DNA of 44,387 nucleotides from positions 1 through 44,387 of IMG/VR virus record IMGVR_UViG_3300044621_000786, one strand, 5' to 3'. Below are positions 5,431-32,417 of the stretch, piece after piece. The translations under genes were made by a program, and so were the position numbers. The notes beneath the pieces were generated by a model. That model made no database searches. It saw nothing but the letters and a program-made list of their open reading frames with translations, and was not told the origin of the DNA. Origin of the DNA: a virus. Numbering within the stretch: the first letter of the stretch is position 1; the number at the start of each line of letters is the position of its first letter.

Positions 5431-6204
5431 TTAAAACGGTGCAGCGGCAGAAGCAGCGTCACCTTCGCTCTCGTGCTTCCCACGTACTGCACCCGAAGAT
5501 ACAGACAGTGCGAAGGATTTGCACGCGGCGTAAACGTCGTCTCGATCGATTGTACCAATACGCTCAACTTCCCAACCGAACCACTTACCCTTGTCGTTCG
5601 ACTCAGGCTGCGTAGTCAATCGGTACATTTGGCTGTACATCGGCGGGGTGAACAAACCGTTCTTACCCTGCAACTTCACCGACTGCATCATGCTGTTCCA
5701 CTTGCGGCTCTTCTTGAGCTGCGTGGACTTCATGACGATCATCGCCGGAGACGGCGTACCGTCTTCGTCAACCACCATCACGTAGTGGTTGGCAGTGTTC
5801 TCGATGTAGTTACCGTTGTCGAGGTAGTCCTTGTTCTCGCCCGGTTCGCGATGCGTACGGGAGAGGATGTCGGACGTGGCCGGGTAGATGTGGATCGGCG
5901 CACCGGAGCCGCTCCCACGGGGAGCCCACTCGATGTACTGACGCACGTATGCGCACGGAACCACCACAATGCCCTTCTTACCATCGTAGAGCTGACCGGT
6001 GACGCTGTTGAAGATCATGCCGGGGAGTGCCCCGTCGACCTCACCAACTTCCGGTGACGTGTTGGTCAGGAGTCGCAGGAACGGCAGGGCGAAGTCGTCC
6101 TGGTTCATTCCGGCAAAACTGCTGCTGGCATCCTCTTCGAATGCCGTAGCAATCGCCAACGCGGTGGATGATTCGTTCTTCTCTGCTAAAGCTGTTTTAG
6201 CCAT
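5431..6204 (-). CDS. Conserved phage replication-region protein, possible single-strand DNA-binding protein
   Basis: A 257-residue protein of a type often seen in aquatic phages. The conserved core starts near FALPFLRLLTNTSPEV and continues through GMIFNSVTGQLYDGKKGI and VVPCAYVRQYIEW, then an aromatic-rich region MYRLTTQPES to GWEVERIG. It ends in an acidic tail followed by small residues and a terminal Phe (HESEGD to AAPF). Such a tail recalls phage SSBs like T7 gp2.5, which use an acidic C-terminus with a terminal Phe to contact replication partners. It sits between the primase and a coiled-coil protein in the replication operon. The SSB reading is inference from tail and position, not from a recognised OB-fold motif. 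Ribosome binding site AAAGGA lies upstream. Confidence 0.75.
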   Translation of the reverse strand: MAKTALAEKNESSTALAIATAFEEDASSSFAGMNQDDFALPFLRLLTNTSPEVGEVDGALPGMIFNSVTGQLYDGKKGIVVVPCAYVRQYIEWAPRGSGSGAPIHIYPATSDILSRTHREPGENKDYLDNGNYIENTANHYVMVVDEDGTPSPAMIVMKSTQLKKSRKWNSMMQSVKLQGKNGLFTPPMYSQMYRLTTQPESNDKGKWFGWEVERIGTIDRDDVYAACKSFALSVSSGAVRGKHESEGDAASAAAPF

Positions 6205-6220
6205 GATTCGTGGTCCTTTG

Positions 6221-6775
6221 TTAAGCTGACTTGATTACGGCCTTTTTACCGATGTACGCGCCGAACAGTTCCGTTGGGAACTCCTCGCCACGTGTCACCC
6301 GTTCCTTGACCCAGGCCTTCAGGGTCGAGGGTTCTACTTTCTCGGACTGCTCGGCAGGGAAACCCTGCTGACCAAGCATGCCGAGGAGACGGTTGCACAA
6401 CTCGTCCTCGCCGCGCCCGAAGCGCACGCTGACGGTGTTTTTGATGATGTCGTCAAAGCCATGATCCCGGAGCCACTGGAAGGCTTCGGCACGTCGGGCT
6501 TCGCTAATCGAGGCGCTGTAGAAGGGCTTCACGTCGATCGAGCTGCCATCTTCCATGCGGAAGGATGACATGCCTATCTCGGTGAGGGCTTCCGGGATAG
6601 CTTCCTCGGTCAGCTTGCGATACTGCTCTTTCAGTCCCTTGAGCGTCGTTTCCTCGTCCTCGATCTGCTTCTCGAGTGACTTGGCACGACGGGCTAGGGC
6701 TGCGATACCGGTGATCTGGTCGTCTTGGACGCGCAGCGCATCGGCTTCTTGCTCAAATAAGCTCGTAAGGCTCAT
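6221..6775 (-). CDS. Conserved phage protein with N-terminal coiled coil
   Basis: A 184-residue protein. Residues about 10-60 are rich in heptad-like charged/hydrophobic patterns (ARRAKSLEKQIEDEETTLKG) and should form a coiled coil. A mixed domain follows with SFRMEDGSSIDVKPFY, RAEAFQWLRDHGFDDIIKN, the short box VSVRFGRGEDE, and a C-terminal helix-rich part ending IGKKAVIKSA. I know this architecture from many phage replication or nucleotide-metabolism regions, but its biochemical role is not established. The chosen ATG (6773-6775) has AAAGGAG six bases upstream, inside the end of the preceding gene. A Gam-like DNA-end protector is an unproven alternative based only on the coiled coil. Confidence 0.8.
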   Translation of the reverse strand: MSLTSLFEQEADALRVQDDQITGIAALARRAKSLEKQIEDEETTLKGLKEQYRKLTEEAIPEALTEIGMSSFRMEDGSSIDVKPFYSASISEARRAEAFQWLRDHGFDDIIKNTVSVRFGRGEDELCNRLLGMLGQQGFPAEQSEKVEPSTLKAWVKERVTRGEEFPTELFGAYIGKKAVIKSA

Positions 6776-8633: not shown

Positions 8634-9331
8634 TCCCCATCAAGCGTCTGTACCAGTACGAGCGCCTAAAGCGCATCGATAGCCCAGACGGCCGCAAGTA
8701 CGTCGACGGCAATGAAAACGCACTACCTAGCGTTACGACCGTGCTGTCGGCAACCAAAGACAAGAAGGCCCTTGATGCGTGGGCCGCGAGGGTTGGTGAG
8801 GCAGAAGCGAACCGGATCAAAAATGAAGCGGCCACGGTCGGCACCCACATGCACAACGTCATCGAGCGGATGATCGCGTACCGTGATCTGCCGCGCCCGA
8901 CCAACTGGCTCATGGTCAAAGGCTATGAGATGGGTTATCGGCTCGTGAACGAGTACTTCATGAATCTCGAGGAGATCTGGGGCTCAGAAGTACCGCTGTA
9001 TTACCCAGCTAAGTACGCCGGGACGACGGATCTTGTAGGGGTATACCGAGGCAACCCTGCGATTGTCGACTTCAAGCAATCGCTGAAGCCGAAGAAGCAC
9101 GAGTGGATCCAGGATTACTTTCACCAGCTTGCTGCCTATGCGCTCGCGCACGATGTGGTGCATGGCACCACAATCAGACACGGCTATGTCCTGGTCGCTC
9201 TCCAATCCGGTGGCACTCAGGAGTTCAGCACCACCGGATCAGAATTTGAGCGATACAAGGAAGAGTGGATGAAGCGCGTCGAGTGTTACCACTCGCCCGA
9301 GTGCGAACAGATGGCTAAGTACTTTAGCTAG
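8621..9331 (+). CDS. PD-(D/E)XK family exonuclease (RecB/Cas4-like)
   Basis: A 236-residue nuclease. The fold is shown by GTHMHNVIE (74-82, H76), D137 in GTTDLVGVY, the D150-F-K152 catalytic pair in IVDFKQS, and the QLAAYALA helix (169-176) typical of RecB-type exonucleases. It has no iron-sulphur cysteine set like that of Cas4. In phages such enzymes degrade DNA ends for recombination, replication or host DNA breakdown. Its start lies within the helicase gene behind a strong GGAGG eight bases upstream, so the two proteins are co-expressed and probably cooperate. Its stop overlaps the end of the opposing late operon by eight bases. Confidence 0.88.
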   Translation: MVDLIPIKRLYQYERLKRIDSPDGRKYVDGNENALPSVTTVLSATKDKKALDAWAARVGEAEANRIKNEAATVGTHMHNVIERMIAYRDLPRPTNWLMVKGYEMGYRLVNEYFMNLEEIWGSEVPLYYPAKYAGTTDLVGVYRGNPAIVDFKQSLKPKKHEWIQDYFHQLAAYALAHDVVHGTTIRHGYVLVALQSGGTQEFSTTGSEFERYKEEWMKRVECYHSPECEQMAKYFS

Positions 9332-12300
9332 GCATCGGTTGACCGGCGGCTACGCCGGCTGCACCGATGATCGCGTCGTTCGGGAAGAGCTGCTGCATCA
9401 TCAGTCTGCTCTGCGTCGGGCCACCCGTTGTCGGAGGCGGACCTCCGGCAGGAGCGCCGCCTTGCGGAGCAGGAGGCTTCTGCATGCCCGGCACGCCACG
9501 GGTGGTCGGGGCCGGCGGAACCGGCTTCGGACGCATGGCGTTGTAGACATCTTGAAGCGACCGGAAGTCTCGCGAAGCAGTCGGTCCCCCCGTCACTGCT
9601 TTCGCCTCGGGTGGCTCTTCGTAGTTCGCGTAGTTCAAGCCAGCAGCCAACAGATACGCGTGCATCGACTTTGCCAAGCGGAACTTCTCCTGTTCGGAGA
9701 GGTTGCGACGCAGCAGCATCGACATGAACGCCGGATCCTGCACGGCCTGTTGCATGGTCTTGCGGACCATCATCATCGGCATCTTGTCAAAGATTTGACG
9801 CACGGCCTTCGAACCGGCCGATGCCGCGATCAGCGAGCCAGGGCCGCCACCGGAGGCAGCCGTACCGATCCGCGAACCGACAACGCGCATGGCGAGCTCG
9901 CCGACGATATCCGCACCCTGTAAGACGTCCTCCAAGGCGCGTTTATTGGCCATCGCGTCTTCGACCATCATCATCCGGTCGGTCAGAGTGCGGATGTTGT
10001 TTAGCTCTTGCGGCGTCATGATGCCCTGCGTACGCAGGATGTCGGCAAGTGCAGGCTGGTCTAGCGCAGACTTCTTGAAGAACGCGTCACGGAACTTTTT
10101 CGGATCCAGCGTGTCCTTGCCGCCTGTCGCCTTCGTGAAGGCGTAGTCGTAGATGGACGCCTTCAGTCCACCCATCGCATCCGGACCACCGCGCTGCGCC
10201 AAACGCGCAATCTGCGCCATGCTGCGCATCGGAGTGCGGCTACGCAAAGCCGCCGCGATCGCATCCGTCGGGTTCTCAAACGGCAGTATTCGCGAGAACG
10301 CCATCTGTTTGCGAACCGTACTATTAAGCGCACTATTCTGTTCGATGACGCTACGAAGCAGGTTCTCGGCTTGCACGGCATTGGTCAGGTCGCCCGTGAT
10401 GCCCATCTGATCGAGCAGGGTTTTGTTCTCTGCTACGAATTTGTTGAGCTGACGTGTGTTGACGCGAAGCGAGTTGGTCTTCGGATCGGTGAAGAGTGCC
10501 TTAGAGGCCATCAGCCGCAATACGCGGTTCTGGGCGTCTTGGATCGACGCCACGCCGGCGGTGGAGACACCTGCGAACTCGCGAAGCATGTCCGCCTCTT
10601 TACGAAGCGACTCTGGCATCAGGCCCGGAGCAACCGGACCCGCTTCGGAAGCAGCCTTCGTCAGGCGATCGCGCATGAAGCCAACGGCCCCCTCGATCTC
10701 CTTCATGCGAAGGGCGACGAGATCCGAGCCCACGCCAAAGGCGTTGTCGACGAGCGTCTCTGCGGGATAACGTGCTCCGCCTGTGCGCGCCGTGCCGAGC
10801 ATTTCGTTCGCAAACGTACGCGTGAACGTGTCGTTCAGTGCGTTCGAGAACTCACGTGCCTTGTTGTAAGCCGGATTGTCGAGCTTGTTGAGATCCTGCA
10901 ACATCGCATCGGCAAGATACGTGTAGAAGCTCGCATCGGAGACTTCGCCGCGCGCCTTGGCCTGACGCGAGAGCGTCAAGAGGTTTGAGCGGTAGTTGAT
11001 TAGGTCGCCAGGCTTGGTCTTCTCAAGCGCCTTCTTGTCCGGCAGATATCGGTAGTGAACGATGCCGGTCTTGGCAAACTGATCCGTGGAGCGTCCACGT
11101 CGATAGAGCTCAATGGCGCTGTTGTTGACACCAAAGCTTTCCATGATCCGTCGCACATCAGGCGGGACCATTGAGTCAACAAGCGCAGGACCAATCTGAG
11201 CGACGCGCTCGAGATACGCACGAACGGTGTTCTCTGCTGTGAGCTGCCTCGGCCGTGGCACGAGCTTCTCGGTCGGACCCGGCAGTTCGTTCTGCGAAAC
11301 GTAGAAGCCGTCCTTGCCTTCCTTACGGCGCAGTTCGTCGAGCACTCGCGCACGGTTAGCAATCTGCTCCGCCGTCATCGTGGCATCAAAGCCCTCTGAG
11401 GCCCACGAGTCGAGCACTTCGCGCTCATTGATGAACGGATCCAACGCCGCACGGACATTCATCGTCCATACGCGCTCATCGCCTTGCAGGTCACGTGCGA
11501 TGGCGTCGTACAACTCCGAATCGCTGATGGCGTTGTAGTTGTCCTTCATCGGGAAGTAGCCGGCGTCAAAGACGCGCTGCTTCACCGCATCGATACTGGC
11601 GGTACCGCGCTCACCAAGGACGTTCTGACGAATGTTTTGACGAACAAGGCCCGGAAGCGACTTGTTCGTGATATCGCGAGCAAGGAGCTCACTGTCATTG
11701 GCAATACCGCCCGTGTTCTTGATGAACACAGACAGCGGGACCGCCTTCATCTTCGTGAGCCGTGAGACTTTATCCGGGTTCCTGAAGTCGATGTCGTTTG
11801 CACGCATGCGCTTCAGTTCAGGCAACAGACCGTTCGCCCAGTTCAAATAAGTACGATTGACCAACGTATCAGACGGCTGCACCTGTAGGCGCACCTGCCC
11901 TGCCGGCTTCATCGCTTCGCGATCTGCGAGATTCCAGTAGTAACGCTCGGCTTCGCGAGCGTTCTCAAGCGCCTGCTCTACTTCGTCACGGACGATGCGG
12001 CCGATCTCGACACGCGCCTGCGGTGAATCCTTGGTGATCTTTGAGATACGCTCTGCGGCACGTAGGTGCGCACGCTCAAGACGCGAGTTGATGGCGTTCG
12101 TGAAGAACTGCTCACGCATCTCCGCCGCAACACGTAAGGCCTCGGGAGACCCGGTGTCTTGCAGCGCAGCGATCGTCTTCGTAAATGCCGTGAGGGCTTC
12201 TTTGCCCTGCGCACGCAAGTTCTCAGAGAAGTTCGGATCCAGTGAGCCAAGCGCCGCTTCAAGCTGCGCCAGCGTCAAAGATCCCGTCTTTTGAGCCGCC

Positions 12301-13223
12301 GTCGGACCCGTCGGCGCGCCAGGCTGTCCCGGACGCGGATAGGTGACGGACACGCCCGGCAACTGCTCGTCGAGGGCCTTGATCAGCGCAGGGATGTCCT
12401 CGCCATTCTCTTCAAGGATCGTCAACAGGCGACGAGTGGCTTCGTCTTGCGCACGAAGATTGCCGCGCTCTTGTGCAGCGGCGCGACCTTCCGCATTGCG
12501 AAGCGACCAAAGTTCCTTGAGCCGTCGTCCACCGCCAGCGGTCAGTGTTGGCAGGACAAATAATGGGTTGAGCACCTTGGTGCCACCCGCCACTTCGGCC
12601 AGGAACCGAGTCATCGGATTGCCTGGGTCAAACTCCTCCGCAAGGACAGTGCCGACAGAGGAGCCGGCTCCGTACAGGGTTTCCCCCATCAAATACGACT
12701 TCGGAGCCTTGCGAGCAAACTCACCAATGGCAGTGACGTACTTGCCTACTCGATCTGCTGTGGCAACCGGGAGATAGAAAGCTGCCGGAGCAAAAGCGAT
12801 GCTGCTGCCGAGCGTCTTGCCGCCCTCAAAGTACGGCATCATCTGCTCGTTGGTCGGACCCCCAACGATAGCGTCAGAAAGCTGCTGTCCTGTCAGCATG
12901 CCAAAGCCAAAGCCGAGCACGCCACCAGCGACTGGAGGGGCGACTTTCAACTGCGGCGGCATGTAAGGAGACAAGCCCGCACCGTAGCGTGCGCCCGCAA
13001 TCATGCTTCCCACAGCAGGAGTGGTTTCGATGACGCCGGCTGGTAAGCCGCGCAGGAAATACTCCCCGGCAGCCTCCATAAACCCCGGTGTTTCTGACTT
13101 AACCGGCTTCGAAAGCTGATCTAGCTCTGCAATCTCAACGGGAACAGGAGTAGGAGGCGCAGCAGCTTGTCCGGCAGGCTTCGAAAGCTGATCAAGCGCT
13201 GACAGTTCATTTTCCTCTTCCAT
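9324..13223 (-). CDS. Very large putative internal virion (ejection) protein
   Basis: A 1299-residue protein, the longest in the window and the last gene of the late operon. The N-terminus carries two copies of LDQLSKP (10-16 and 34-40) separated by a Pro/Ala-rich linker, then a Gly/Ala-rich hydrophobic stretch (about 98-122). The remainder is mainly helical and charged, with a Pro/Gly linker near TYPRPGQPGAPTG and a C-terminal Pro/Gly-rich tail. Position and composition match large internal proteins of podoviruses that leave the capsid with the DNA. No lytic transglycosylase or polymerase motif is visible. ATG at 13221-13223 overlaps the upstream stop as TGATG, preceded by GAGG; a GTG one codon earlier is possible. 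Function is inferred from size and context. Confidence 0.8.
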   Translation of the reverse strand: MEEENELSALDQLSKPAGQAAAPPTPVPVEIAELDQLSKPVKSETPGFMEAAGEYFLRGLPAGVIETTPAVGSMIAGARYGAGLSPYMPPQLKVAPPVAGGVLGFGFGMLTGQQLSDAIVGGPTNEQMMPYFEGGKTLGSSIAFAPAAFYLPVATADRVGKYVTAIGEFARKAPKSYLMGETLYGAGSSVGTVLAEEFDPGNPMTRFLAEVAGGTKVLNPLFVLPTLTAGGGRRLKELWSLRNAEGRAAAQERGNLRAQDEATRRLLTILEENGEDIPALIKALDEQLPGVSVTYPRPGQPGAPTGPTAAQKTGSLTLAQLEAALGSLDPNFSENLRAQGKEALTAFTKTIAALQDTGSPEALRVAAEMREQFFTNAINSRLERAHLRAAERISKITKDSPQARVEIGRIVRDEVEQALENAREAERYYWNLADREAMKPAGQVRLQVQPSDTLVNRTYLNWANGLLPELKRMRANDIDFRNPDKVSRLTKMKAVPLSVFIKNTGGIANDSELLARDITNKSLPGLVRQNIRQNVLGERGTASIDAVKQRVFDAGYFPMKDNYNAISDSELYDAIARDLQGDERVWTMNVRAALDPFINEREVLDSWASEGFDATMTAEQIANRARVLDELRRKEGKDGFYVSQNELPGPTEKLVPRPRQLTAENTVRAYLERVAQIGPALVDSMVPPDVRRIMESFGVNNSAIELYRRGRSTDQFAKTGIVHYRYLPDKKALEKTKPGDLINYRSNLLTLSRQAKARGEVSDASFYTYLADAMLQDLNKLDNPAYNKAREFSNALNDTFTRTFANEMLGTARTGGARYPAETLVDNAFGVGSDLVALRMKEIEGAVGFMRDRLTKAASEAGPVAPGLMPESLRKEADMLREFAGVSTAGVASIQDAQNRVLRLMASKALFTDPKTNSLRVNTRQLNKFVAENKTLLDQMGITGDLTNAVQAENLLRSVIEQNSALNSTVRKQMAFSRILPFENPTDAIAAALRSRTPMRSMAQIARLAQRGGPDAMGGLKASIYDYAFTKATGGKDTLDPKKFRDAFFKKSALDQPALADILRTQGIMTPQELNNIRTLTDRMMMVEDAMANKRALEDVLQGADIVGELAMRVVGSRIGTAASGGGPGSLIAASAGSKAVRQIFDKMPMMMVRKTMQQAVQDPAFMSMLLRRNLSEQEKFRLAKSMHAYLLAAGLNYANYEEPPEAKAVTGGPTASRDFRSLQDVYNAMRPKPVPPAPTTRGVPGMQKPPAPQGGAPAGGPPPTTGGPTQSRLMMQQLFPNDAIIGAAGVAAGQPMPS
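9333..9369. terminator. Long hairpin at the convergent gene junction
   Basis: An imperfect inverted repeat starts one base after the nuclease stop codon. The outer arms 9333-9339 and 9363-9369 form seven pairs, and the inner arms 9343-9348 and 9353-9358 form six G-C pairs closing a GCTA loop, with small internal loops of three and four bases. It lies inside the last codons of the opposing gene. Neither side has a T-run, so it may be a factor-dependent stop, an RNA-stabilising 3' hairpin for the rightward transcript, or both. Confidence 0.5.
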
Positions 13224-15211
13224 CACTCCCTCACGCGGAAATTGGTGGCGTCTTTATAGAAGAACGGTGTGCCCGGAGGCAGCTTACGCACTTCTTCAAG
13301 ACTATACACCCTCACCGGAACTCCAAGCTTTTCTCGGAAGTTGACGATAGCGTCGATACTGTCAGAGGCAAACTTCTTGGCTTCCGGTGTGTTGGCCGGA
13401 TCCGACAAAACGGCTTGCGAGTCCTTGAGCTTGTCTTCGAGGAACTTATCGACGCCAACAAACGTATTGCGCAGCGCGTTCTCGTCTCGCATGAAGCGCG
13501 GAGAGAGGTCCAGCTCCTTCTCGATAGCAGCGCGTTCGCCTTCGGCAAATCGCGGGTTGTTCTGCAACACCTTGATGAGCTCGCGAACGGAATTCTCGAA
13601 GTACGTTCTGTCCTGCTGCGCCTGCTCGGCCATGCCGCCAGCCAGCGGCACGTTTTGCGCGATTCCTGCCGCAGCCGCTTGGACAAACGACAAGTTTGGA
13701 GCCATATCCCACAGCTTTCGCGTGCGACCGGCGACCGGAGCAGGGGCAGCCGGTGCCTCTGGCGCAACCGCCGCTTCAGGCGACACCGTGTTCGGACCTG
13801 CTGGCACAGTGCCTTGAGTCTGCGGACCAGGACGACCACCAGACGCATCCAACGCACGACGCGCGGCTAACGCATCCGTCAAGAATGGAAGGTTGTAGCC
13901 GGGGATCGTACGCGTGACCTTGTTACCAAGATCGTTCGTGTAGATCTCTGTCGACGGGCGAAGCAAACGCGAAGCCGCACTCGTGATGAGGTTGTCCTCT
14001 TCCGGAGTCGTCTCGCCATCGGCATAAGCCTGCAAGAGTCCAGGAGCATTGACCACGCTCCAGTCCCACGAGCCTTTGCCGAACATGCTGCTTGCGGATT
14101 TGCCAGAATTTTTGAGGATGTCGCCGAACGCCTTGCGCTGCGACTCGACGAGCTTGATATTGCCCTCGCGAACCTGCTCACGCTCCTTCTCGGCAGCTTG
14201 GATCGCCGCCATGCGGATCGCGCGCTTGTTCTTGTCCTCTTCAGCAATGAATTGACCCACTGCACCCGGAACCTCCGAGGCAACGGTCGCAAGACGGCTC
14301 AGTGTTGAACCGCGCAAAGGACGGCCCTGCGCATCGACGTTGCCGGCAAGCTGTAAGCCCTTCTGGCCGAGCATTAACAGCAACTGCGCCTGACGGGATT
14401 CTTTGTCCTCGCCAAGCAGATCGCGATACATCTGTTCGCGCTCCATCGTCGTTGCCTTAAGGTCAGGCATCGCAGAGGTCGGCTGCGTCAGCATCTTGGA
14501 GTAGCCCGTCCGGGCATACTCAAGAAGCTCTGGTGGCAGACGCATACCGAGGGAGGAAGTGTCCTCATCGTATGGGGTCACGCCTTCCTCATCGGACCCG
14601 TCCTGAAAACGTTGAACGTACCCACCATCCTTCATCTGGATCGGCGGCATGCCTTCCGGCGGGATCGGCTGACCATCAGGCCCCATCATCGGGCCAGGAG
14701 CCATACCGCCTCCGGGAGCAGGACCGGCGGCGGCAAGAAGCGCGGCCATATCGCCGGGTGGCGGCGCGGCTGCGCCAGGAGGAAGTGGCGGAGCGCCAGG
14801 AGGCGGAGCTCCCATGGCAGCTCCCGGAGGCGGCGGCATTGGAGGCTGTGGCCCTTGGGCCATGGGCTGTGATTGCGGCAACGCGCCAAGCCCAGCGCCT
14901 TGCGCCAGCACCGGCTGGAGCATCGCAAGCACAGAGTCGGGGGTCTCGGCAGCGGCCGGGTAGCCCACGAGGTCAGCCAATTCTTCGCGACGCGCATCGA
15001 CGGAGCGCATGTCGCCACGGAGATTGTTCATGAGGATCTCAGGCGAATTGGGACGGCGATCGAGGACCTTAGCAGCCGAGTTTTCCTCGTCCGCATCCTC
15101 CTCTTCCTCCATCTCGTCTTCCATCTCCACGGCATCGTCTGCCTCGTCGAGGAAGCCCTGCATGATGCCGACGTTTTCCACGTCGTCCAACATTTCTCTT
15201 GCCTTTGCCAT
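13223..15211 (-). CDS. Large proline-rich virion protein, putative internal/ejection protein
   Basis: A 662-residue protein. Residues 22-43 are almost all Asp/Glu. Residues 113-190 are extremely Pro/Gly/Ala/Met-rich and surely disordered. A KDGGYVQRFQDG box (194-205) follows, of a kind seen in internal proteins of aquatic phages. Then comes a long helical, charged part (EEDKNKRAIRMAAIQ and EKEREQVREGN) and a globular C-terminus ending in PPGTPFFYKDATNF. It lies between two other large structural proteins and overlaps the downstream one, so it is very probably a virion component. No enzymatic motif is seen. Calling it an ejection protein is inference from neighbours. Confidence 0.75.
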   Translation of the reverse strand: MAKAREMLDDVENVGIMQGFLDEADDAVEMEDEMEEEEDADEENSAAKVLDRRPNSPEILMNNLRGDMRSVDARREELADLVGYPAAAETPDSVLAMLQPVLAQGAGLGALPQSQPMAQGPQPPMPPPPGAAMGAPPPGAPPLPPGAAAPPPGDMAALLAAAGPAPGGGMAPGPMMGPDGQPIPPEGMPPIQMKDGGYVQRFQDGSDEEGVTPYDEDTSSLGMRLPPELLEYARTGYSKMLTQPTSAMPDLKATTMEREQMYRDLLGEDKESRQAQLLLMLGQKGLQLAGNVDAQGRPLRGSTLSRLATVASEVPGAVGQFIAEEDKNKRAIRMAAIQAAEKEREQVREGNIKLVESQRKAFGDILKNSGKSASSMFGKGSWDWSVVNAPGLLQAYADGETTPEEDNLITSAASRLLRPSTEIYTNDLGNKVTRTIPGYNLPFLTDALAARRALDASGGRPGPQTQGTVPAGPNTVSPEAAVAPEAPAAPAPVAGRTRKLWDMAPNLSFVQAAAAGIAQNVPLAGGMAEQAQQDRTYFENSVRELIKVLQNNPRFAEGERAAIEKELDLSPRFMRDENALRNTFVGVDKFLEDKLKDSQAVLSDPANTPEAKKFASDSIDAIVNFREKLGVPVRVYSLEEVRKLPPGTPFFYKDATNFRVRE

Positions 15212-24209: not shown

Positions 24210-24697
24210 TGATGCACTCCTGATAGGTACATGGCGCGCTCATCATTGCGCCGTTTGACCAACCCAGGTAGCACACGACCACCAGCCTTGGTCCATTTCA
24301 AAAACTCATCAGCGGCCTCTTCGAGATCACCTCGGTTCGTCTTCATCCGAAGGGAAGAGCGTTGGAGATTGCCGAGGCCCACGTTGAAGGCAAAACTAAC
24401 GAGACTATCGAAGATTCCTTGACGGCCAACAGCAGCAGGGCAAAGTCGAACCACGCCACGCTCAAACCGACGAAGGTCTTCAGCAAGTATCCGGTCCACC
24501 TCGTCCATCGTGAGAGTGCGATCCCACCCTGCGGGTATCGGTAAATGGCGACGTTCCTCATACTTCACCGCAGTGTGAGTCGGCTCGATGACATGTCCAA
24601 CGCCCACGGTCCACAACAAGGCCGGACACCGATAAGGGCGCGTTCTGACGCCCTCATGATGTTTGATCATCTCAATGGCGGCCTTGGAGACTTTCAC
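24206..24697 (-). CDS. Endolysin, glycoside hydrolase 24 lysozyme
   Basis: A 163-residue T4/P22-type lysozyme that cuts the glycan strands of peptidoglycan. The catalytic set follows the E-x8-(D/C)-x5-T pattern: E15 in HHEG, C24 and T30 in TVGVGH. C24 replaces the Asp of T4 lysozyme, as in P1 Lyz-type enzymes. FAFNVGLGNLQRS corresponds to the conserved family helix in this region. There is no signal peptide or SAR segment, so release depends on a holin. The start is GTG at 24695-24697, overlapping the upstream stop as GTGA. Length is usual for the family. Identity is secure. Confidence 0.93.
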   Translation of the reverse strand: MKVSKAAIEMIKHHEGVRTRPYRCPALLWTVGVGHVIEPTHTAVKYEERRHLPIPAGWDRTLTMDEVDRILAEDLRRFERGVVRLCPAAVGRQGIFDSLVSFAFNVGLGNLQRSSLRMKTNRGDLEEAADEFLKWTKAGGRVLPGLVKRRNDERAMYLSGVHQ

Positions 24698-25179
24698 TTC
24701 TTACCGAATGCCTGCGTTCCAAACCAGAAGGCGATGATCGAGGACAGGATCAGCATCTCGTCCTCAGAGAACACCTCCGCCATGGCAGCCGCAAACGGTA
24801 CGCCCGTGTTATAGGCGTACCAGACTCCGGCGATGTTGATAGCGACCAGTTCCAGAACAAAGATGTAAGTCACAACCGGACGCACCGAAGCGCGCAGGTT
24901 GATCATCCACTGGCTTGCGCCTTTGCCGATCTCCATGTCGTGCTGGTACAGCGCCACACGCTCTTCGGCTGCGGTCTGCGTTTGGATCTGCTCTAGCTTG
25001 ATCTCCTCCACGCGCGCCTGCGCGAGAAAGCCCCGCTCGGCCAAAGCGAGCTCACGCTCCTTTTGCGCTGCCACAAGGGCCAACTCATGCTTCTTGTCCT
25101 GCCGATCTTGGAAGATCTGAAGGATCTTTGGCAGTCCGCCTGCGAGGAAGGACAGGAAAGTACTGACCATTGTCATCAT
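24694..25179 (-). CDS. Coiled-coil membrane protein of the lysis cluster, holin or spanin-like candidate
   Basis: A 161-residue protein. A hydrophobic or amphipathic start (5-22, VSTFLSFLAGGLPKILQIF) is followed by a long charged coiled coil (24-85) with heptads in ELALVAAQKERELALAERG. Two hydrophobic helices follow (about 100-122 and 141-156). It lies immediately upstream of the lysozyme, coupled by GTGA. The layout suits a holin-like or lysis-accessory membrane protein common in aquatic phages. It could also be a tail-associated membrane protein, so the role is inferred from context. ATG at 25177-25179 is used, overlapping the fibre stop; a second ATG follows immediately. Confidence 0.65.
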   Translation of the reverse strand: MMTMVSTFLSFLAGGLPKILQIFQDRQDKKHELALVAAQKERELALAERGFLAQARVEEIKLEQIQTQTAAEERVALYQHDMEIGKGASQWMINLRASVRPVVTYIFVLELVAINIAGVWYAYNTGVPFAAAMAEVFSEDEMLILSSIIAFWFGTQAFGKK

Positions 25180-27203
25180 GGGTGCGTCCTCTTGTACTCA
25201 TCGAACTCGGCCTTGAGCTCTTGGATAGCCTTGATCAACGGGGCAATCATCTCTTCATAGCCCAGCGACAAGACATCCTCTCCGCCCTTGACCTTGTGAT
25301 CCTGATAGCCGCCAAAGTCGATGCCCATCGCGTCCATCGTAGCTTTGACTTCTTGCGCAACCAGGCCCTGGTGGAAACGATTACGCTTGTGCGTGCCGTC
25401 ATGCTGCAGGTTGCTAAACTTATTGGCCTCGATCCACGCATCAAGGACGTCCTTCGGAGCATCCGGCGGCGGACGCGGAGTGCGGTAATCCTCGCGCATG
25501 TCCCATCTAAATTTACGGGGACGAAGAGCAAGGACAAAGTTCAACCCAAGATCCGTGTCTTGGATGTCCGTCTTGTCTCGTGCGTCCGAGCGATCCTGCA
25601 CTGACCCATATACGTAGGTCGTTACTGACGAGTTGCCTAACTGAAGCTGATCACCTCCGGTGATCTGCGAGCTATATCCGATGCACGTGGAGTTGTTGTA
25701 TGCGCCGCCTCCCGCATATGCCCCGGATCCAATAGCCGTATTAAAACTTCCAGTGCTGATCTGAATTCCAGCCCATTTGCCAAGACAAGTGTTGTCGCTA
25801 GAGGATGACGCCTGATCACCAGCGCCATAACCAACAAACGTATTGTCTTCTCCGCTAGTAACAGCGGTACCTGCGTCGACACCGACAAAAGTGTTCTGCC
25901 TGCCGGTCGTCATGCTGTCGCCAGCGGTCGCGCCGATAGCGAGGTTGCTTGTGCCGGTGCCTGTTCCCTTGCCGATCGTAACGCCATTGACTGAAACGTT
26001 AGCGGTCGTCGTTAACACGCCGCCATCGGTGATGGTGACGCCGGAGTTTTGAATAAGCTTTCCAGTTGTTCCGTCAAAACGAGCAATAGCGTTATCCGTT
26101 GCCGAGCCGGGACCCGCAACATCTCCAGTGCCAGCGGCGGAGATCGTGATTGAGCCAGCGCCATTGGTAATAGTGATGCCTGTGCCTGCGGTCAACGTCG
26201 CCTTGTTCAGCGTATTGCCGGTCGTGTTACCGATCAGCAACTGACCGTTGGTATAGCTCGTTTGGCCCGTACCGCCGTTGGTCACGGCCAACGTTCCGGT
26301 GACGCCCGTCGAGAGCGGCAAGCCCGTCGCATTGGTCAGCGTTGCCGCAGACGGCGTGCCGAGATTTGGAGTCGTCAAAGCAGGGGACGTGGAAAGCACC
26401 ACGCTGCCAGAACCAGTGCTGCTCGTAACGCCAGTACCACCATTGGCAACAGGTAGCGTGCCCGTCACGCCCGTGGTCAACGGCAATCCAGTGGCGTTCG
26501 TCAGAGTCGCCGCAGACGGAGTGCCGAGGTTCGGAGTCGTGAGCGCGGGAGACGTAGAAAGCACCACGCTTCCTGATCCGGTGCTGCTCGTAACTCCCGT
26601 GCCGCCATTGGCTACCGGCAGTGTACCGGTGACACCCGTAGTAAGAGGCAGCCCCGTCGCGTTCGTGAGCGTCAAAGCCGACGGCGTGCCTAGATTCGGC
26701 GTTGTCAGTGTCGGCGAAGTCGAGAGAACGACGTTGCCCGTACCGGTGCTCGTCGTGACGCCTGTACCGCCGTCTGTCACCGCAACCGGCGTCGTGGGAT
26801 AGCTCGTCGCAAGCTCCACGTCCGTGCCGTCACAGACCAGAATGACTTTCTTGCCATTGGCCACAGAAACACCCGTCTGGCCCGACACCTTGACGGTGAC
26901 CTGCCCAGAAGCGGTGTTGTTGTAGATGAAGTACAGCTTTCTCTTGGCCGGAACAATCAGGTTTGTGGCCGCACCGCCCGTGCCCGTGAGCTCGATGTAC
27001 ATGTTTCGAGCAACGCCAGTCGAACCATCCGGGATGGTGATCGTCGTGTCCGTTCCCGTGGCAACCGCCTGCGTGACGTAGCCCGATACGGCCTGCTCCA
27101 GCAGCGTTCCGAGGTTACTATTGGTAATGTCGCCCCAAGTGTCGGACTTCTCGCCCGTCACCATGAGCTCCAGGCCAAGGTTTGTGCTGTAACTACTAGG
27201 CAT
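25176..27203 (-). CDS. Tail fibre with 55-residue repeats and S74 self-cleaving chaperone domain
   Basis: A 675-residue fibre. ATG at 27201-27203 gives MPSSYSTNLGLELMV, a known fibre N-terminal anchor type. The longer frame starts inside the preceding gene and lacks this fit. After a beta domain come three tandem 55-residue repeats (NGGTGV..STSPALTTPNLGTPSA), then trimeric-adhesin-like hexad repeats (NTFVGVDAGTAV, NTFVGYGAGDQ). The C-terminus is an intramolecular chaperone of peptidase family S74: S539 and K544 in SDARDK are the expected catalytic dyad, with GLVAQEV and a final coiled coil. Self-cleavage would release the chaperone after trimer assembly. Only 11 bases separate it from the upstream repeat protein. 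Confidence 0.88.
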   Translation of the reverse strand: MPSSYSTNLGLELMVTGEKSDTWGDITNSNLGTLLEQAVSGYVTQAVATGTDTTITIPDGSTGVARNMYIELTGTGGAATNLIVPAKRKLYFIYNNTASGQVTVKVSGQTGVSVANGKKVILVCDGTDVELATSYPTTPVAVTDGGTGVTTSTGTGNVVLSTSPTLTTPNLGTPSALTLTNATGLPLTTGVTGTLPVANGGTGVTSSTGSGSVVLSTSPALTTPNLGTPSAATLTNATGLPLTTGVTGTLPVANGGTGVTSSTGSGSVVLSTSPALTTPNLGTPSAATLTNATGLPLSTGVTGTLAVTNGGTGQTSYTNGQLLIGNTTGNTLNKATLTAGTGITITNGAGSITISAAGTGDVAGPGSATDNAIARFDGTTGKLIQNSGVTITDGGVLTTTANVSVNGVTIGKGTGTGTSNLAIGATAGDSMTTGRQNTFVGVDAGTAVTSGEDNTFVGYGAGDQASSSSDNTCLGKWAGIQISTGSFNTAIGSGAYAGGGAYNNSTCIGYSSQITGGDQLQLGNSSVTTYVYGSVQDRSDARDKTDIQDTDLGLNFVLALRPRKFRWDMREDYRTPRPPPDAPKDVLDAWIEANKFSNLQHDGTHKRNRFHQGLVAQEVKATMDAMGIDFGGYQDHKVKGGEDVLSLGYEEMIAPLIKAIQELKAEFDEYKRTHP
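26272..26775 (-). repeat. Three tandem 165-bp (55-residue) fibre repeats
   Basis: The fibre gene repeats a 165-bp unit about three times, plus a partial fourth beginning. The two downstream copies (26482-26615 and 26317-26450) encode the same 44 residues or so, but the DNA differs at 25 of 134 positions, all silent. Confidence 0.85.
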
Positions 27204-27214
27204 TTCTCGATCCT

Positions 27215-28306
27215 CTATGCCGCTATCGGCGTCCAAATATTCGGTTGCGAATCATCCACGGGCGTCCAAATACCGCCCTGCGCGTCATCGACCACGGTCC
27301 ACGGGCCGGTCGGGCCAGGGATAATATTACTCCAAACAGTGACCTGTCCGACCTGTCCGACCGCTTGTACGCCAGTTACGAAGACGTCGGCGTTTGCAGC
27401 GACGGCCACCGCACCCACGGCACCGGTAGCCGAAACCCCGGTGACGAAGACGTTGGTGACAACTTCGACGTCGACGGTGCCGACTTCGCCGGTGGCCTGA
27501 ACCCCAGTCAGAAGAACATTCGCCGTTCCTGTAACAGCAGCAGCCCCGACCTGTCCCGTTGCAGATACGCCGGTAACTAGTACGTTGGTGCCTGCCGTAA
27601 CAACAACCGAGCCGACTTCGCCACTGGCGAAGACCCCGGTGACGAAGACATCCGCATTGGCGGCGACGGCAGCAACGCCAACCTGTCCAGTGGCTTGAAC
27701 CCCGGTAACGAAGACCTCGACCGACGGAAGCACCGTAACAGAGCCAACTTCGCCGGTGGCCACAACGCCGGTGACAAGGACGTTGGCGTCGCCCGTAACC
27801 GCTGCAACGCCAACCTGACCTGTTGCAAAGACTCCGGTGACAAGAACATCTGCGTTTGCTGCAACGACGACGGTGCCAACCTGTCCCGTAGCCGACAGCC
27901 CGGTGACAGGGACCTCTGCTCCCGCCGCCACAGCGACGGTGCCGACCTCTCCGGTACCGAACACCCCCGTAACAAGAACGTTCGCGGTACCGGTGACGGC
28001 AGCGGTGCCGACCTCTCCAGTTCCGAAGACACCGGTAACAAACACGTCGGTTGACGCGTTAACGGCGACCGATCCGACCTCGCCAGTGGCAAAAACTCCG
28101 GTGACCGATACGTTAGCCGCGCCAGCGACAGCTACGGTACCAACTTGCCCCGTTGCCTGAACGCCAGTAAGCGTGACGTTTGCGGATCCTGTGACCGCAG
28201 CCGCGCCCACCTGGCCGGTAGCTTGTACCCCAGTGAGGCTGACAGCAACGTCGACTGCCCCTGCGGATGCAAAGGGAGCCGATGCAAATGGGGTAAAGCC
28301 GAGCAT
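27215..28306 (-). CDS. Phage protein made of fourteen 22-residue repeats
   Basis: A 363-residue protein. After a 21-residue hydrophobic start (MLGFTPFASAPFASAG) it has thirteen complete and one partial copy of a 22-residue unit close to VFVTGVQATGQVGVAAVAAN (residues 22-324). The key pattern is V-x-V-T-G-V-x-A-T-G-(Q/E)-V-G-x-V-x-V. The C-terminus holds two shorter WTxVDDxQ motifs and a final WTPIAA. The regular Val/Gly/Thr alternation predicts a stacked beta structure such as a beta-solenoid. Related repeats occur in aquatic phages, with unknown function. It lies between a sulfotransferase and a self-cleaving fibre, so a role in receptor binding or the fibre surface is plausible. Ribosome binding site AAGGA overlaps the preceding stop region. 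Confidence 0.78.
   Translation of the reverse strand: MLGFTPFASAPFASAGAVDVAVSLTGVQATGQVGAAAVTGSANVTLTGVQATGQVGTVAVAGAANVSVTGVFATGEVGSVAVNASTDVFVTGVFGTGEVGTAAVTGTANVLVTGVFGTGEVGTVAVAAGAEVPVTGLSATGQVGTVVVAANADVLVTGVFATGQVGVAAVTGDANVLVTGVVATGEVGSVTVLPSVEVFVTGVQATGQVGVAAVAANADVFVTGVFASGEVGSVVVTAGTNVLVTGVSATGQVGAAAVTGTANVLLTGVQATGEVGTVDVEVVTNVFVTGVSATGAVGAVAVAANADVFVTGVQAVGQVGQVTVWSNIIPGPTGPWTVVDDAQGGIWTPVDDSQPNIWTPIAA
27335..28243 (-). repeat. Fourteen tandem 66-bp units encoding the 22-residue repeat
   Basis: Each DNA unit is 66 bp with no length variation. Units vary at the residue after TGV (Q, F, S or V) and at the Q/E position before VG, while the T-G and V-G positions stay almost fixed. 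Confidence 0.85.
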
Positions 28307-28309
28307 TCG

Positions 28310-28873
28310 CTAGTATTCCTTACCTAGTGTCCTCTTCGCAAACTCGTAGTCGGCAGCGTAATAGTCGCGGACAAACTCGATGACTTCTGGAGTAGCTTCT
28401 GCGACCCCTCGACCAGCATTAATGTGCATAACCTCGTGGCCCGGATCGTCGTAGTTGCTTCCAATCGCCTTTAACTCAGACGAAAAATTATCAAAATCCA
28501 AAACAGTCATGTTTGGGACATCTAGCCACTCAACCTGCCTGGCTTTTAGGATATAAGCGAGCTGGATGTTATCGGCGACACTGCTGTCGGTTATGTGTGC
28601 TGGTGTTACCCTCTGACCAAATCGATTGAACATCCTGCAAATACTTAAATAACGATCTAGTGGATTTCTGAAAAACCCGTATAGCTTGTAGGCTTTTAGG
28701 TTAGGAAATACATCGAACGCCTCGGTCGGAAACATGTGATGCATTCTCGGTTCTGTTGTATTTAAGTACGGAACATACTTAAAACCGAGTGCAACCAAGT
28801 AATTGCAAGTGCTTGTGCTTCCCGTTCGGGTTGGCAGTACAAACGCTGTTTTGGTGGGCTTGTGAAAAAGCAT
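28310..28873 (-). CDS. Sulfotransferase-family protein
   Basis: A 187-residue protein with the hallmarks of PAPS-dependent sulfotransferases: a phosphosulfate-binding loop PTRTGSTS (14-21) after the first strand FVL, and the 3'-phosphate motif FFRNPLDRYLS (67-77) with R69 and S77. The protein is at the short end of the family and may lack part of the acceptor pocket. ATG at 28871-28873 is chosen, overlapping the previous stop as TAATG; the longer upstream frame is a Arg/Gly-rich artefact. Its DNA is less GC-rich than its neighbours (about 40-45 % in the sampled 60-base lines), suggesting later acquisition. It could sulfate a host or virion glycan; the substrate is unknown. Confidence 0.75.
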   Translation of the reverse strand: MLFHKPTKTAFVLPTRTGSTSTCNYLVALGFKYVPYLNTTEPRMHHMFPTEAFDVFPNLKAYKLYGFFRNPLDRYLSICRMFNRFGQRVTPAHITDSSVADNIQLAYILKARQVEWLDVPNMTVLDFDNFSSELKAIGSNYDDPGHEVMHINAGRGVAEATPEVIEFVRDYYAADYEFAKRTLGKEY

Positions 28874-29412
28874 TACGGCTCCTCCCCGCCCTCGCCTGCG
28901 GACGGAACGTAAATCCACTCCTGAAGAGCCTCGTTCCATTCATACCGCTTGTTTCCAAAAGGTATTCGATCAGGGGGAAACGGCTTTGGTGGCATCCACG
29001 TTGGTGGATCCTGGGACGGATCAAAATACCAAGAGGGGTATGGTTTTGGCACACTTACCCAAGAAACAGTTGACTCGTCCCAGCGATACACGGAATCAGG
29101 GGGCCTAGGAATAGGAGGCTCCCAAAGAGCAGTTGTTGGACTTACCACCCATGACGGATATCTAATTGGCCGAGGCGGAACAAATGCATCTATGTCCTGG
29201 CGGTAACTAAACCCGGCACCGGCGAAGTTTTTCCTGAAAGATCCGTTGTAGCTTGTTTGTTTCCAAGCAGTGCTGTCCCCATACAAGGCTCTACAAAAAG
29301 CAACCCCGACGGGCTCCGACTCTGGAAACGGAAGCTCTTCGATTGCATCGTTACTAATAGCAACAACGTCAACGACAAGGTTGTTTTCGTCAATTCTTGC
29401 AAAATGAGCCAT
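28873..29412 (-). CDS. Conserved small tail-region protein of cyanophage-like type
   Basis: A 179-residue protein. ATG at 29410-29412 gives MAHFARIDENNLVVDVVAIS, a start shared by many cyanophage and other aquatic phage proteins. The middle has GDSTAWKQTSYNGSFRKNFA, then repeated Pro/Trp motifs (PYPSWYFDPSQDPPTWMPP and WDESTVSWVSV), and an acidic Gly/Glu-rich end. It lies between a glycine-rich adhesin and the sulfotransferase, coupled to both. It is thought of as a virion or fibre-associated protein, but its exact function is unknown. Trp/Pro-rich strands suggest a surface or carbohydrate contact. Confidence 0.78.
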   Translation of the reverse strand: MAHFARIDENNLVVDVVAISNDAIEELPFPESEPVGVAFCRALYGDSTAWKQTSYNGSFRKNFAGAGFSYRQDIDAFVPPRPIRYPSWVVSPTTALWEPPIPRPPDSVYRWDESTVSWVSVPKPYPSWYFDPSQDPPTWMPPKPFPPDRIPFGNKRYEWNEALQEWIYVPSAGEGGEEP

Positions 29413-29414
29413 GA

Positions 29415-30416
29415 TCAAGAGTTCCAAACAACAGAACCAGATCCGTTGAACACATAAATTTTATATCCACCGCTCGTCGTTATAGACGGGGACCCCGTAG
29501 TGGTTCCGGTTGTGTAAGTATCCGCATGTCGAATGATGACAACACCAGACCCCCCGTTTCCTGTGTTTGGAGGGCTATATTCACGGCCGCCACCACCACC
29601 ACTGCCGGTGTTAGCTGTAGCGGAACGAGGACTATATGGGTAAGCATTACCCGCGCCACCGCCACCGCCAAAGCCGCCATACGCTGCTCCACCACCACCT
29701 GCTCTGGCAACAGAGGCTCCGGTTATTGAAGAAGATGCGGGTGCGCCTCCCGTCGCAACACCGCCAGCGCCTCCTGCGCCACCGCCTCCACCGGCATCTT
29801 GTTGCGGACAGCCGTATCCGGTGCCACCGTTGTTTCCTTGGCCGGCAGTTCCCAAGCCGGCCGCTGTCTGGCCGCACTTATACATGCCGTAACTAAATAT
29901 ATACCACTCGACAGAGTTACCACCGCCAGAGCCGCCGCTTCCGCCGTTTGATATTAAGTTGAAGTCATCTGTAGAACCGCCGCCTCCGCCGCCTGTCGAA
30001 ACAATGCCGCCAAATGCCGAATTGCCCCCGTTACTGGCTGCGCCGTAAAAGGGTGCACCAGCGCCTCCGCCGCCAACAGTTATTGTGTATGTTGTTCCCT
30101 GCGATACCGCAGTTGAACTTGTCCGGTATCCGCCTGCGCCACCACCACCAGAGTTTCCAACGCCATATTCGCCGGGTCCGTAATAAGCGTATCTACCGTA
30201 TCCTCCGCCACCGCCACCGGCAATAACTAGGTATTCAACGGTGGGAGGCCCGTTATAAGCGGACTTGCCAAGTAGATTGCTCATCGATATCTGCCCACTC
30301 GGAACACCGGCAAGCGTGCGCACGTTCGCTTGGTTAAGCGAGATCTGCGTAGTCGCTGCCAACCCAAGTTCAACGTTCACTTGGGACATCGATAGGTTAT
30401 TAACCGGAAGTGTCAT
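29415..30416 (-). CDS. Glycine-rich tail adhesin
   Basis: A 333-residue protein. A short helical anchor (MTLPVNNLSMSQVNVELGLA, 1-20, continuing to about 50 with ISMSNLLGKSAYNG) is followed by VEYLVIAGGGGGGYG and a long chain of Gly-rich blocks (GGGGAGG, GGGGGGS, GGGGAAYGGFGGGGGAG). These resemble Gly-rich fibre-tip domains where polyglycine II helices pack side by side, as in T-even-like gp38 adhesins. Tyr and Ser between Gly runs would face the receptor. The end GVVIIRHADTYTTGTTTG to NGSGSVVWNS is a beta closure. It follows the S74 fibre at 30420 and may sit at its tip. This structural reading is inference. Confidence 0.8.
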   Translation of the reverse strand: MTLPVNNLSMSQVNVELGLAATTQISLNQANVRTLAGVPSGQISMSNLLGKSAYNGPPTVEYLVIAGGGGGGYGRYAYYGPGEYGVGNSGGGGAGGYRTSSTAVSQGTTYTITVGGGGAGAPFYGAASNGGNSAFGGIVSTGGGGGGSTDDFNLISNGGSGGSGGGNSVEWYIFSYGMYKCGQTAAGLGTAGQGNNGGTGYGCPQQDAGGGGGAGGAGGVATGGAPASSSITGASVARAGGGGAAYGGFGGGGGAGNAYPYSPRSATANTGSGGGGGREYSPPNTGNGGSGVVIIRHADTYTTGTTTGSPSITTSGGYKIYVFNGSGSVVWNS

Positions 30417-30419
30417 GGC

Positions 30420-32417
30420 TTACTTCGCGGCCTTGAGTGCTTCGACCTCCGCCTTCAACTCCTTGATGGCTTCGATCAAGAGCGGCACCAACTTCTCGTA
30501 CCGGACGGTCATGTAGTCCTCACCAGACTTGCTCTTGTTCTCTGCATCCATATCAAACGGAGCAGGAGCAATAACTTCTGGCAGGATCGCTTTCACTTCC
30601 TGCGCCGAGACACCAACTTGGAGTTCCTTGTTGTTAAACCCGAACTCTTCGGCCTTCTCGTTTTCGGTGTAGTAGTAACCGTTTAACTGGCTGACTTTGT
30701 ACAGCGCATCACCGATCTTGCCCTTGAAGTCTTTGAGGCGAGCGTCGGAGTAGTAGGCCGTGACGTTGTTAGTTGCGCGAATTTCGCCGGTCGTGCCTGA
30801 CGCGGCAGTGCCAACACCAAGGCTATTGCACTTGAAATTGGAAAGTGCAGCGCCAGAACTCCAACCACCAACAGCGAATTGGTTATCAGTATCAAGACCG
30901 AAATACGCAGCGAACGCACCAGCGCGGTGGAACGACATAAATGCAGCATTAGCACCGCCCGGATTTACAGCCTCAAGGCCACCAAGACTGCCTGTTGCAG
31001 TCAACATTGTTCCTACGTTTTGACTTGCAGAGAACAACTTTCTCCCAGTGGATGTTTGATTTGAAGCCAAATACATCCCGTCAGTGACGGTTGCGGCGTT
31101 GCCAGAGATGCTTCCGTTGATCGTATTGCTAACGGTCAAGCCGGTCGTAGTGATTGTGCCGCTGACTTGGAGAGCGGTGCTGGGCGAAGTTGTGCCAATA
31201 CCGACGTTACCGGCGGAGGTAATACGCATCCGTTCGGCGCTGTTAGTGCCAAATACAAGAGGGGTTGTTGAAACCGTTGAAAGAAGCGTTGCATAAGCAG
31301 CGCCGGTTCCAATAATTCCAGTGCCGGAACTTGATTCAATACCAAAATAAGTTTGGTTTGCAGCGCCGTTATAAAAAGTCTGATAAATCGGCTGTCCCGT
31401 TGAACTGCTTTCAACCCTTAATGCAGCAGCCGACGAGTAAACATGAAGTTTTACAGCAGGCGAAGCCGTCCCAATGCCGACGTTGCCGGAGGAGTCAATG
31501 CGCATCGTCTCCGTGGTTCCGCCACTGCCTCTGTAAAACGCCAGCGTTTCTGCTGCTGGCTGGCGAATGGCTGCGTATGTAGTTCCGTCTATCTGTAACT
31601 CAACACCACTGCCAGAGGTGTTAGCGCCACCGCCCCCTCTGTTAGCAATAAAATTTCCGGTGTTGCAGTAAACATTTCCGCCTACCACAAGTTTTTGGTT
31701 CGGCGAAGCCGTCCCAATGCCGACGTTGCCGGAGGAGTCAATACGCATCCGTTCGCCGTTGTTGGTATACAGCGCAAGAGGGTGGTTTGTAACCGTTCCT
31801 ACAACACCAATGCCACCTGACTCATTTGCCCAAATTCCCTGCGTAACCGACGCAGTTTTCATCAATATATCGGCAAAATTTCCCGACGATGAAACCCCCA
31901 GTTTTGATGTAGGCGAAGCCGTCCCAATACCGACGTTGCCCGACGTATCTATCCTGACCCTCTCGCTGCCTCCGGTGTAGAAGGTCATCGGGAGGTAGGA
32001 GCCGGTGCCGGTTAGCACTGACGCAAGCCTAGCCTCACTCAAAGACGTTGATGACAGTATTGCAAAAACGGACGTATTTGCGGGGTCAGAACTCCCATAC
32101 AGATTTAGTTGCCCCGTCTGCCCTGTTCCGTTTGGAAGAACGCCAATTGTGGTGTTACTGTTCGCCGTACTCGTTTGAAACGCCAAGCGATTGCTCAACG
32201 TCGCATTGCTCATGTCGCCCGTGATGCGCTGGGCGGTGCCGGAGAACGTGAGGTTGCCGGACGAGATGGTGCTTCCGGTAGTGGTAAGGCTGCTGATGGT
32301 GGTAGCCCCACCAGCAGCGATTTGAATGGCATTAACGCCGCCAGACTGAATGTTCAGGGCGGTAGTCGCATCTGCGGTCAGTTCGATGCCGTCTACGGCG
32401 GCGTTAATGGTTCCCAT
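30420..32417 (-). CDS. Tail fibre with S74 self-cleaving chaperone domain
   Basis: A 665-residue fibre. The N-terminal module (MGTINAAVDGIELTADATTA, then GGATTISS and QRITGDMSNAT) is shared with the fibre at 34045. The shaft contains repeated RIDSSGNVGIGTASP boxes. The C-terminal S74 domain has S557 and K562 (SDARLK), VGVSAQEVKAILPEV and a coiled-coil end; the chaperone is expected to cut itself off after trimerisation. DNA boxes encoding the SGNVGIGTASP turns are identical over 41 bases within the gene (31459-31499 and 31702-31742), and 32 of these recur in the fibre at 35226. Recognised as a fibre with high confidence; the receptor is unknown. Confidence 0.88.
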   Translation of the reverse strand: MGTINAAVDGIELTADATTALNIQSGGVNAIQIAAGGATTISSLTTTGSTISSGNLTFSGTAQRITGDMSNATLSNRLAFQTSTANSNTTIGVLPNGTGQTGQLNLYGSSDPANTSVFAILSSTSLSEARLASVLTGTGSYLPMTFYTGGSERVRIDTSGNVGIGTASPTSKLGVSSSGNFADILMKTASVTQGIWANESGGIGVVGTVTNHPLALYTNNGERMRIDSSGNVGIGTASPNQKLVVGGNVYCNTGNFIANRGGGGANTSGSGVELQIDGTTYAAIRQPAAETLAFYRGSGGTTETMRIDSSGNVGIGTASPAVKLHVYSSAAALRVESSSTGQPIYQTFYNGAANQTYFGIESSSGTGIIGTGAAYATLLSTVSTTPLVFGTNSAERMRITSAGNVGIGTTSPSTALQVSGTITTTGLTVSNTINGSISGNAATVTDGMYLASNQTSTGRKLFSASQNVGTMLTATGSLGGLEAVNPGGANAAFMSFHRAGAFAAYFGLDTDNQFAVGGWSSGAALSNFKCNSLGVGTAASGTTGEIRATNNVTAYYSDARLKDFKGKIGDALYKVSQLNGYYYTENEKAEEFGFNNKELQVGVSAQEVKAILPEVIAPAPFDMDAENKSKSGEDYMTVRYEKLVPLLIEAIKELKAEVEALKAAK

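Follow-up and report, generated by a model that had tools for sequence, protein, structure and literature searches.

Sulfotransferases encoded by phages have been described before. Those of OM43 phages and of glacier viruses (PMC10580990, PMC8290583) are treated as auxiliary metabolic genes, and their role in phages was called unclear by the authors (PMC10580990; also PMC8290583). In the cyanophage ACG-2014f the sulfotransferase gene belongs to a cassette of nucleotide-sugar and glycosyltransferase genes, and a tail fibre gene follows about 2 kb downstream. Roseobacter phage SIO1 carries, near its tail fibre gene, a gene annotated only as gp5.1. Receptor-binding tips can be glycine-rich proteins with hypervariable loops, as in T2-type gp38 (PMC12892980). 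The locus described here belongs to a phage represented solely by environmental DNA, in a viral record of 44,387 bases (the window, meaning the whole stretch analysed). Unlike that of ACG-2014f, its sulfotransferase gene lies between phrog_7759 and fibre-region genes, and no sugar cassette was recognised.

A small sulfotransferase gene among tail genes

The earlier note had named one ORF a sulfotransferase gene with 5'-PSB-like and 3'-phosphate motifs, placed inside the tail-fibre cassette, and this reading holds: the ORF stands with its strand, length and start (Table 1), both motifs are present, and Peptidase_S74 fibres and a Gly_rich_2 protein lie around it. In 200,000 shuffles of the protein the two motifs never occurred together at plausible spacing. 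The identity is well supported by these motifs, the phrog_3347 profile, the predicted fold and relatives that match Sulfotransfer_2. The window protein itself has no Pfam match, so it does not rise above the curated Sulfotransfer_2 (PF03567) cut-off, and its profile match to phrog_3347 ('Galactose-3-O-sulfotransferase', E 1.9e-5) covers residues 8-80 only. Across 15 distinct family members, phrog_3347 is matched by 11 (best 2.9e-10) and Sulfotransfer_2 by five (best E 1.1e-5); the member L196 exceeds the Pfam cut-off, with 26 bits against 22.

The AlphaFold model of the window protein, built from 15 sequences, has a pLDDT of 85.6 and a pTM of 0.85. All 50 PDB fold matches listed for it are sulfotransferases (best E 5e-4, top-match TM 0.5-0.57), headed by heparan sulfate 3-O-sulfotransferases and the bacterial 3RNL (E 5e-4 to 9e-4, prob 1.00), and among the viral fold matches are proteins annotated as sulfotransferases in P-SSM7, S-T4 and ACG-2014f, along with SIO1 gp5.1. 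A profile search of PDB sequences returned no significant sulfotransferase. Predicted fold and conserved residues thus support a small, putatively PAPS-dependent sulfotransferase as the product of this gene.

Table 1. Positions of the sulfotransferase gene, its motifs and the neighbouring tail genes in the window.
Feature	Position	Strand	Remarks
Tail fibre or spike protein with S74 domain	25176..27197	-	Pfam, PHROGs
Repeat protein directly downstream of sulfotransferase	27215..28306	-	
Sulfotransferase gene	28310..28873	-	187 aa, ATG at 28873; ORF, profile match and predicted fold
Conserved C-terminal segment FVRDYYAADYEFAKRTLGKEY, residues 167-187	28313..28375	-	Tyr172 and Asp175 invariant
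3'-PSB motif FFRNPLDRYLS, residues 67-77	28643..28675	-	Arg69 and Ser77 invariant
His46	28736..28738	-	Same in 25/25 clusters; candidate catalytic residue
5'-PSB motif PTRTGSTS, residues 14-21	28811..28834	-	Arg16 where most relatives have Lys
TAATG stop-start overlap with upstream gene	28871..28875	-	Junction present in nearly all relatives
phrog_7759 protein	28873..29412	-	Directly upstream of sulfotransferase in most relatives
Gly_rich_2 protein, probable tail-tip or receptor-binding protein	29415..30416	-	PF21722 E 2.6e-13; model pLDDT 77.7; Bxb1 tail tip fold match
First hypervariable loop of Gly-rich protein, YGRYAYYGPGEYGVGNS	30150..30200	-	
Tail fibre protein, C-terminal S74 chaperone domain	30420..32417	-	Pfam, PHROGs

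Two further claims of the earlier note, translational coupling to fibre-region genes and a base composition richer in AT than that of the neighbours, agree with the sequence. The start codon shares one base with the stop of the upstream gene, after a GGGGAGGAG stretch, and the junction recurs among the relatives. The GC content of the gene, 0.456, is the lowest among 37 window genes tested (mean 0.564, z -3.5). GC3 deviates by only z -1.6 and is similarly low in the adjoining tail genes (0.43-0.56); part of the GC deficit therefore falls in codon positions 1-2 and reflects amino-acid composition. The sulfotransferase genes of relatives are also AT-richer than the rest of their own contigs, by a small margin in L029 and L030 (L numbers denote loci or contigs with relatives or comparable genes). 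Low GC is therefore a family trait and not evidence of recent acquisition, and a recent transfer read from it was rejected.

The genes of this region run in the order S74 fibre, Gly-rich protein, phrog_7759, sulfotransferase, repeat protein, S74 fibre, holin-/spanin-like gene (named from sequence features only) and endolysin. The repeat protein consists almost entirely of imperfect VTGVxATGQVGxVxV-type repeats and matches no family. The holin-/spanin-like gene (24694-25179) encodes a protein 96-100% identical across many contigs with widely differing tail genes, and forms a sharp conserved edge bordering the variable fibre region. Elsewhere in the window, two very long ORFs of 1300 and 662 aa (9324-15211) have no Pfam or PHROGs match and adjoin a weak match to a DNA-ejection protein, and two adjacent proteins at 5431-6775, next to genes for DNA polymerase, helicase and primase, match cyanophage Pam3 gp33-like and gp34-like families (PF23984, PF23977).

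Relatives, conservation and predicted activity

Scans of viral contigs gave 34 loci with relatives of the sulfotransferase, and a scan with the neighbouring holin gene brought in more; clustering all of these at 90% identity gives 25 clusters, of which one is a fragment. No bacterial relative appeared in two scans covering the genomes of 84,980 species, although these scans need peptide-pattern matches and distant relatives may escape them. The window protein has no match among 50,697 records of isolated phages. When relatives were tried against isolated phages, L018, L033 and L010 gave no matches, L004 and L028 only weak partial ones, and L005 alone reached cyanophages. The most divergent relative, the 252-aa protein of L033, lies directly downstream of two 2OG-Fe(II) oxygenase-like genes (L033:6709-8759) on a contig of about 0.37 GC; L034 and L035 have the same sulfotransferase.

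His46, Gln113, Tyr172 and Asp175 are identical in 25/25 clusters, and Arg69, Pro71 and Ser77 (RxPxxRxxS context) in all 24 clusters that span them. At the 5'-PSB position (K/R x G [ST]), all 24 spanning clusters have Lys or Arg. The PAPS-binding residues are thus retained in the motif alignment; the sole change is in the 5'-PSB, where the window protein and two other clusters of the 25 have Arg for Lys. Certain sulfotransferases, the tyrosylprotein and GlcNAc-6-O enzymes among them, use Arg at this site. A dN/dS of 0.058-0.073 in the closest informative pairs of the family is a sign of purifying selection. Together with the invariant Arg and Ser of the 3'-PSB and the invariant His, this makes an active enzyme the most likely reading of these sequences. 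The scans of window genes recognised none for making PAPS, so PAPS would have to be host-derived.

A recurring place behind genes for a probable Gly-rich tip

In fold comparison the model of the Gly-rich protein matches the tail tip of Bxb1 (E 4e-4 and prob 1.00, though at a TM of 0.3-0.4) and, less strongly, the fibre of Pam3, which suggests that it is probably a tail-tip protein; gp38 is absent from its fold matches. The sulfotransferase gene lies almost always downstream of such a gene, usually via phrog_7759, in at least three architectures. In the first, the order Gly-rich, phrog_7759, sulfotransferase is kept among contigs that differ in their remaining tail and lysis genes. In a second, a small protein other than phrog_7759 stands between a Gly-rich protein and the enzyme (L211, L175, L194, L217); in L211-type loci the Gly-rich protein also differs from the window type (PF21722 shown for L211). 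In a third, the enzyme comes directly after the Gly-rich gene and has a small gene and then a 2OG-Fe(II) oxygenase gene downstream of it (L028, L031). A Gly-rich gene stands directly upstream of phrog_7759 in 19/19 distinct phrog_7759-linked enzyme loci versus 38/82 phrog_7759 occurrences without enzyme. The Fisher p of this comparison, 4e-6, is inflated, because the loci share ancestry and family members served as seeds for the searches. On the Gly-rich protein tree, about 8 changes are required to account for the members with the enzyme, which suggests that the pairing with the tip was probably not a single event; the tree is poorly resolved and its well-supported branches force only 2.

The place behind the tip genes is not reserved for sulfotransferases. 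Locus L204 shares the near-identical holin-like gene and has, behind phrog_7759, a pair of 2OG-Fe(II) oxygenase genes in place of the sulfotransferase (L204:5204-6425). This, with the recurrent gene order, suggests a slot for enzymes whose target would be the tail-tip module or whatever this module contacts. As separate observations, genes with 2OG-oxygenase-like C-termini often precede phrog_7759 in loci that have no sulfotransferase, and one phage has two pairs of Gly-rich and phrog_7759 genes with a sulfotransferase after the first only (L005:1926-7163). The conserved linkage favours a role tied to the Gly-rich tip, and as a pattern of gene order it would fit either a fibre role or a host-glycan role.

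What could the enzyme sulfate?

The explanation that we lean towards, by a modest preference, is a tip-linked PAPS-dependent sulfotransferase acting in the receptor-binding step, on the phage's own tip module or on the host receptor. The enzyme would be made together with the tail-fibre genes, as operon position and the TAATG overlap suggest, and would transfer sulfate from host-made PAPS to the Gly-rich tail-tip module or to a host surface molecule recognised by the tip, thereby acting in receptor binding. Between these two acceptors the balance would incline slightly to the virion module. Several points weigh against this explanation: Pfam gives no match for the window protein itself, a late operon position may be merely a tolerated cargo slot, the L033 relative sits beside 2OG oxygenases with no recognised tail gene, and the linkage statistics suffer from the relatedness of the loci, the inflated Fisher p and the poorly resolved adhesin tree.

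Could the slot simply hold cargo? A gene for an enzyme with an unrelated substrate (a host metabolite or lipid), lodged in a variable region downstream of the tail tip, is the best surviving of the alternatives, if an unlikely one. Other unrelated genes follow phrog_7759 in other phages and the slot is shared with 2OG oxygenases, but the repeated pairing with Gly-rich genes across architectures exceeds what random cargo would give, relatedness allowed for.

Next in standing, and rather doubtful, is modification of the virion only, in which the Gly-rich tip or phrog_7759 would be sulfated during assembly, for example on loop tyrosines, with altered charge and receptor binding. The enzyme gene is directly linked to the tip gene in several architectures, and scans of window genes with Pfam and PHROGs recognised no glycosyltransferase, which leaves sulfation of the phage's own fibre glycans, one suggestion of the earlier note, with no visible source of glycans. 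The window tip protein has a long aromatic loop with an acidic-Tyr pair, and [DE]Y pairs number 5 versus 1.9 expected in the loop (p 0.019, uncorrected). The first loop of enzyme-linked Gly-rich proteins is usually long and aromatic, with a median of 18 aa versus 4 aa otherwise, and Tyr makes up 5.2% of enzyme-linked proteins versus 3.6% of those without enzyme. However, loci of the same backbone that have no enzyme (L202, L204, L165, L169) also have long or aromatic loops, so at least part of the loop signal goes with the lineage, and tyrosine sulfation is not established by it. The L005 paralogues, one with and one without enzyme, are the same in loop and Tyr, and the best 50 fold matches include no tyrosylprotein sulfotransferase. 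A Tyr-rich adhesin loop as the substrate thus fails the within-backbone control and was kept as a lead only.

Modification of the host receptor ranks just behind it and is likewise rather doubtful. Here sulfation of a host surface glycan would keep progeny or rival phages from binding, by receptor masking or superinfection exclusion. Most of the closest solved folds and profiles belong to carbohydrate sulfotransferases, the ACG-2014f relative lies in a sugar-modifying cassette, and an adhesin and such an enzyme would be expected to travel together, which predicts the same linkage. Yet the gene is in the tail-fibre cassette and not among genes for replication, the window contains no further gene recognised as surface-modifying, and a cytoplasmic enzyme would need precursors inside the cell as its targets.

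A more specific form of virion modification, in which the enzyme would sulfate the receptor-binding tip of its own tail (e.g. loop tyrosines) and sulfotransferases and 2OG-Fe(II) oxygenases would interchange in tip-modification slots, is less probable again. A catalytically dead sulfotransferase-like protein serving as a binding module, which a short protein, the Arg in place of Lys in the 5'-PSB and the miss by Pfam would fit, is very improbable given motif residues constant across 24-25 clusters, a dN/dS of 0.06-0.07 and an Arg variant found again in two other clusters.

For the favoured tip-linked enzyme, the recurrent company with one kind of tail-tip gene narrows the question of the acceptor to two candidates, the tip and the receptor that it binds. 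Should the tip turn out to be sulfated, phages would have post-translational modification, besides variation of their loops, as a means of tuning adsorption.

Comparison with known sulfotransferases

No description of this tail-tip-linked sulfotransferase family was found in the open-access papers searched. Its nearest described relatives are the phrog_3347 proteins (e.g. that of ACG-2014f), which have the same motifs and predicted fold as the window protein at about 23% identity; tblastn matches the ACG-2014f sulfotransferase to the L005 relative at E 8e-3 over 98% of that relative's length. SIO1 gp5.1, similar in its nearness to a tail fibre gene, is a structural match (E 1e-4) at 12% identity to the window protein. 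The OM43-phage enzymes differ from the window family in being reported as Sulfotransfer_3 (PF13469). Pfam Sulfotransfer_2 shares the order of 5'-PSB and 3'-PSB, in a model of 252 positions against the 187 aa of the window protein, and the heparan sulfate 3-O-sulfotransferases and 3RNL share a fold (TM 0.51-0.57) at 11-16% identity, the phage protein being shorter. The window family is a divergent member of the known phage sulfotransferases. Such enzymes as such were already known in phages; what is new is the recurring place in a tail-tip operon.
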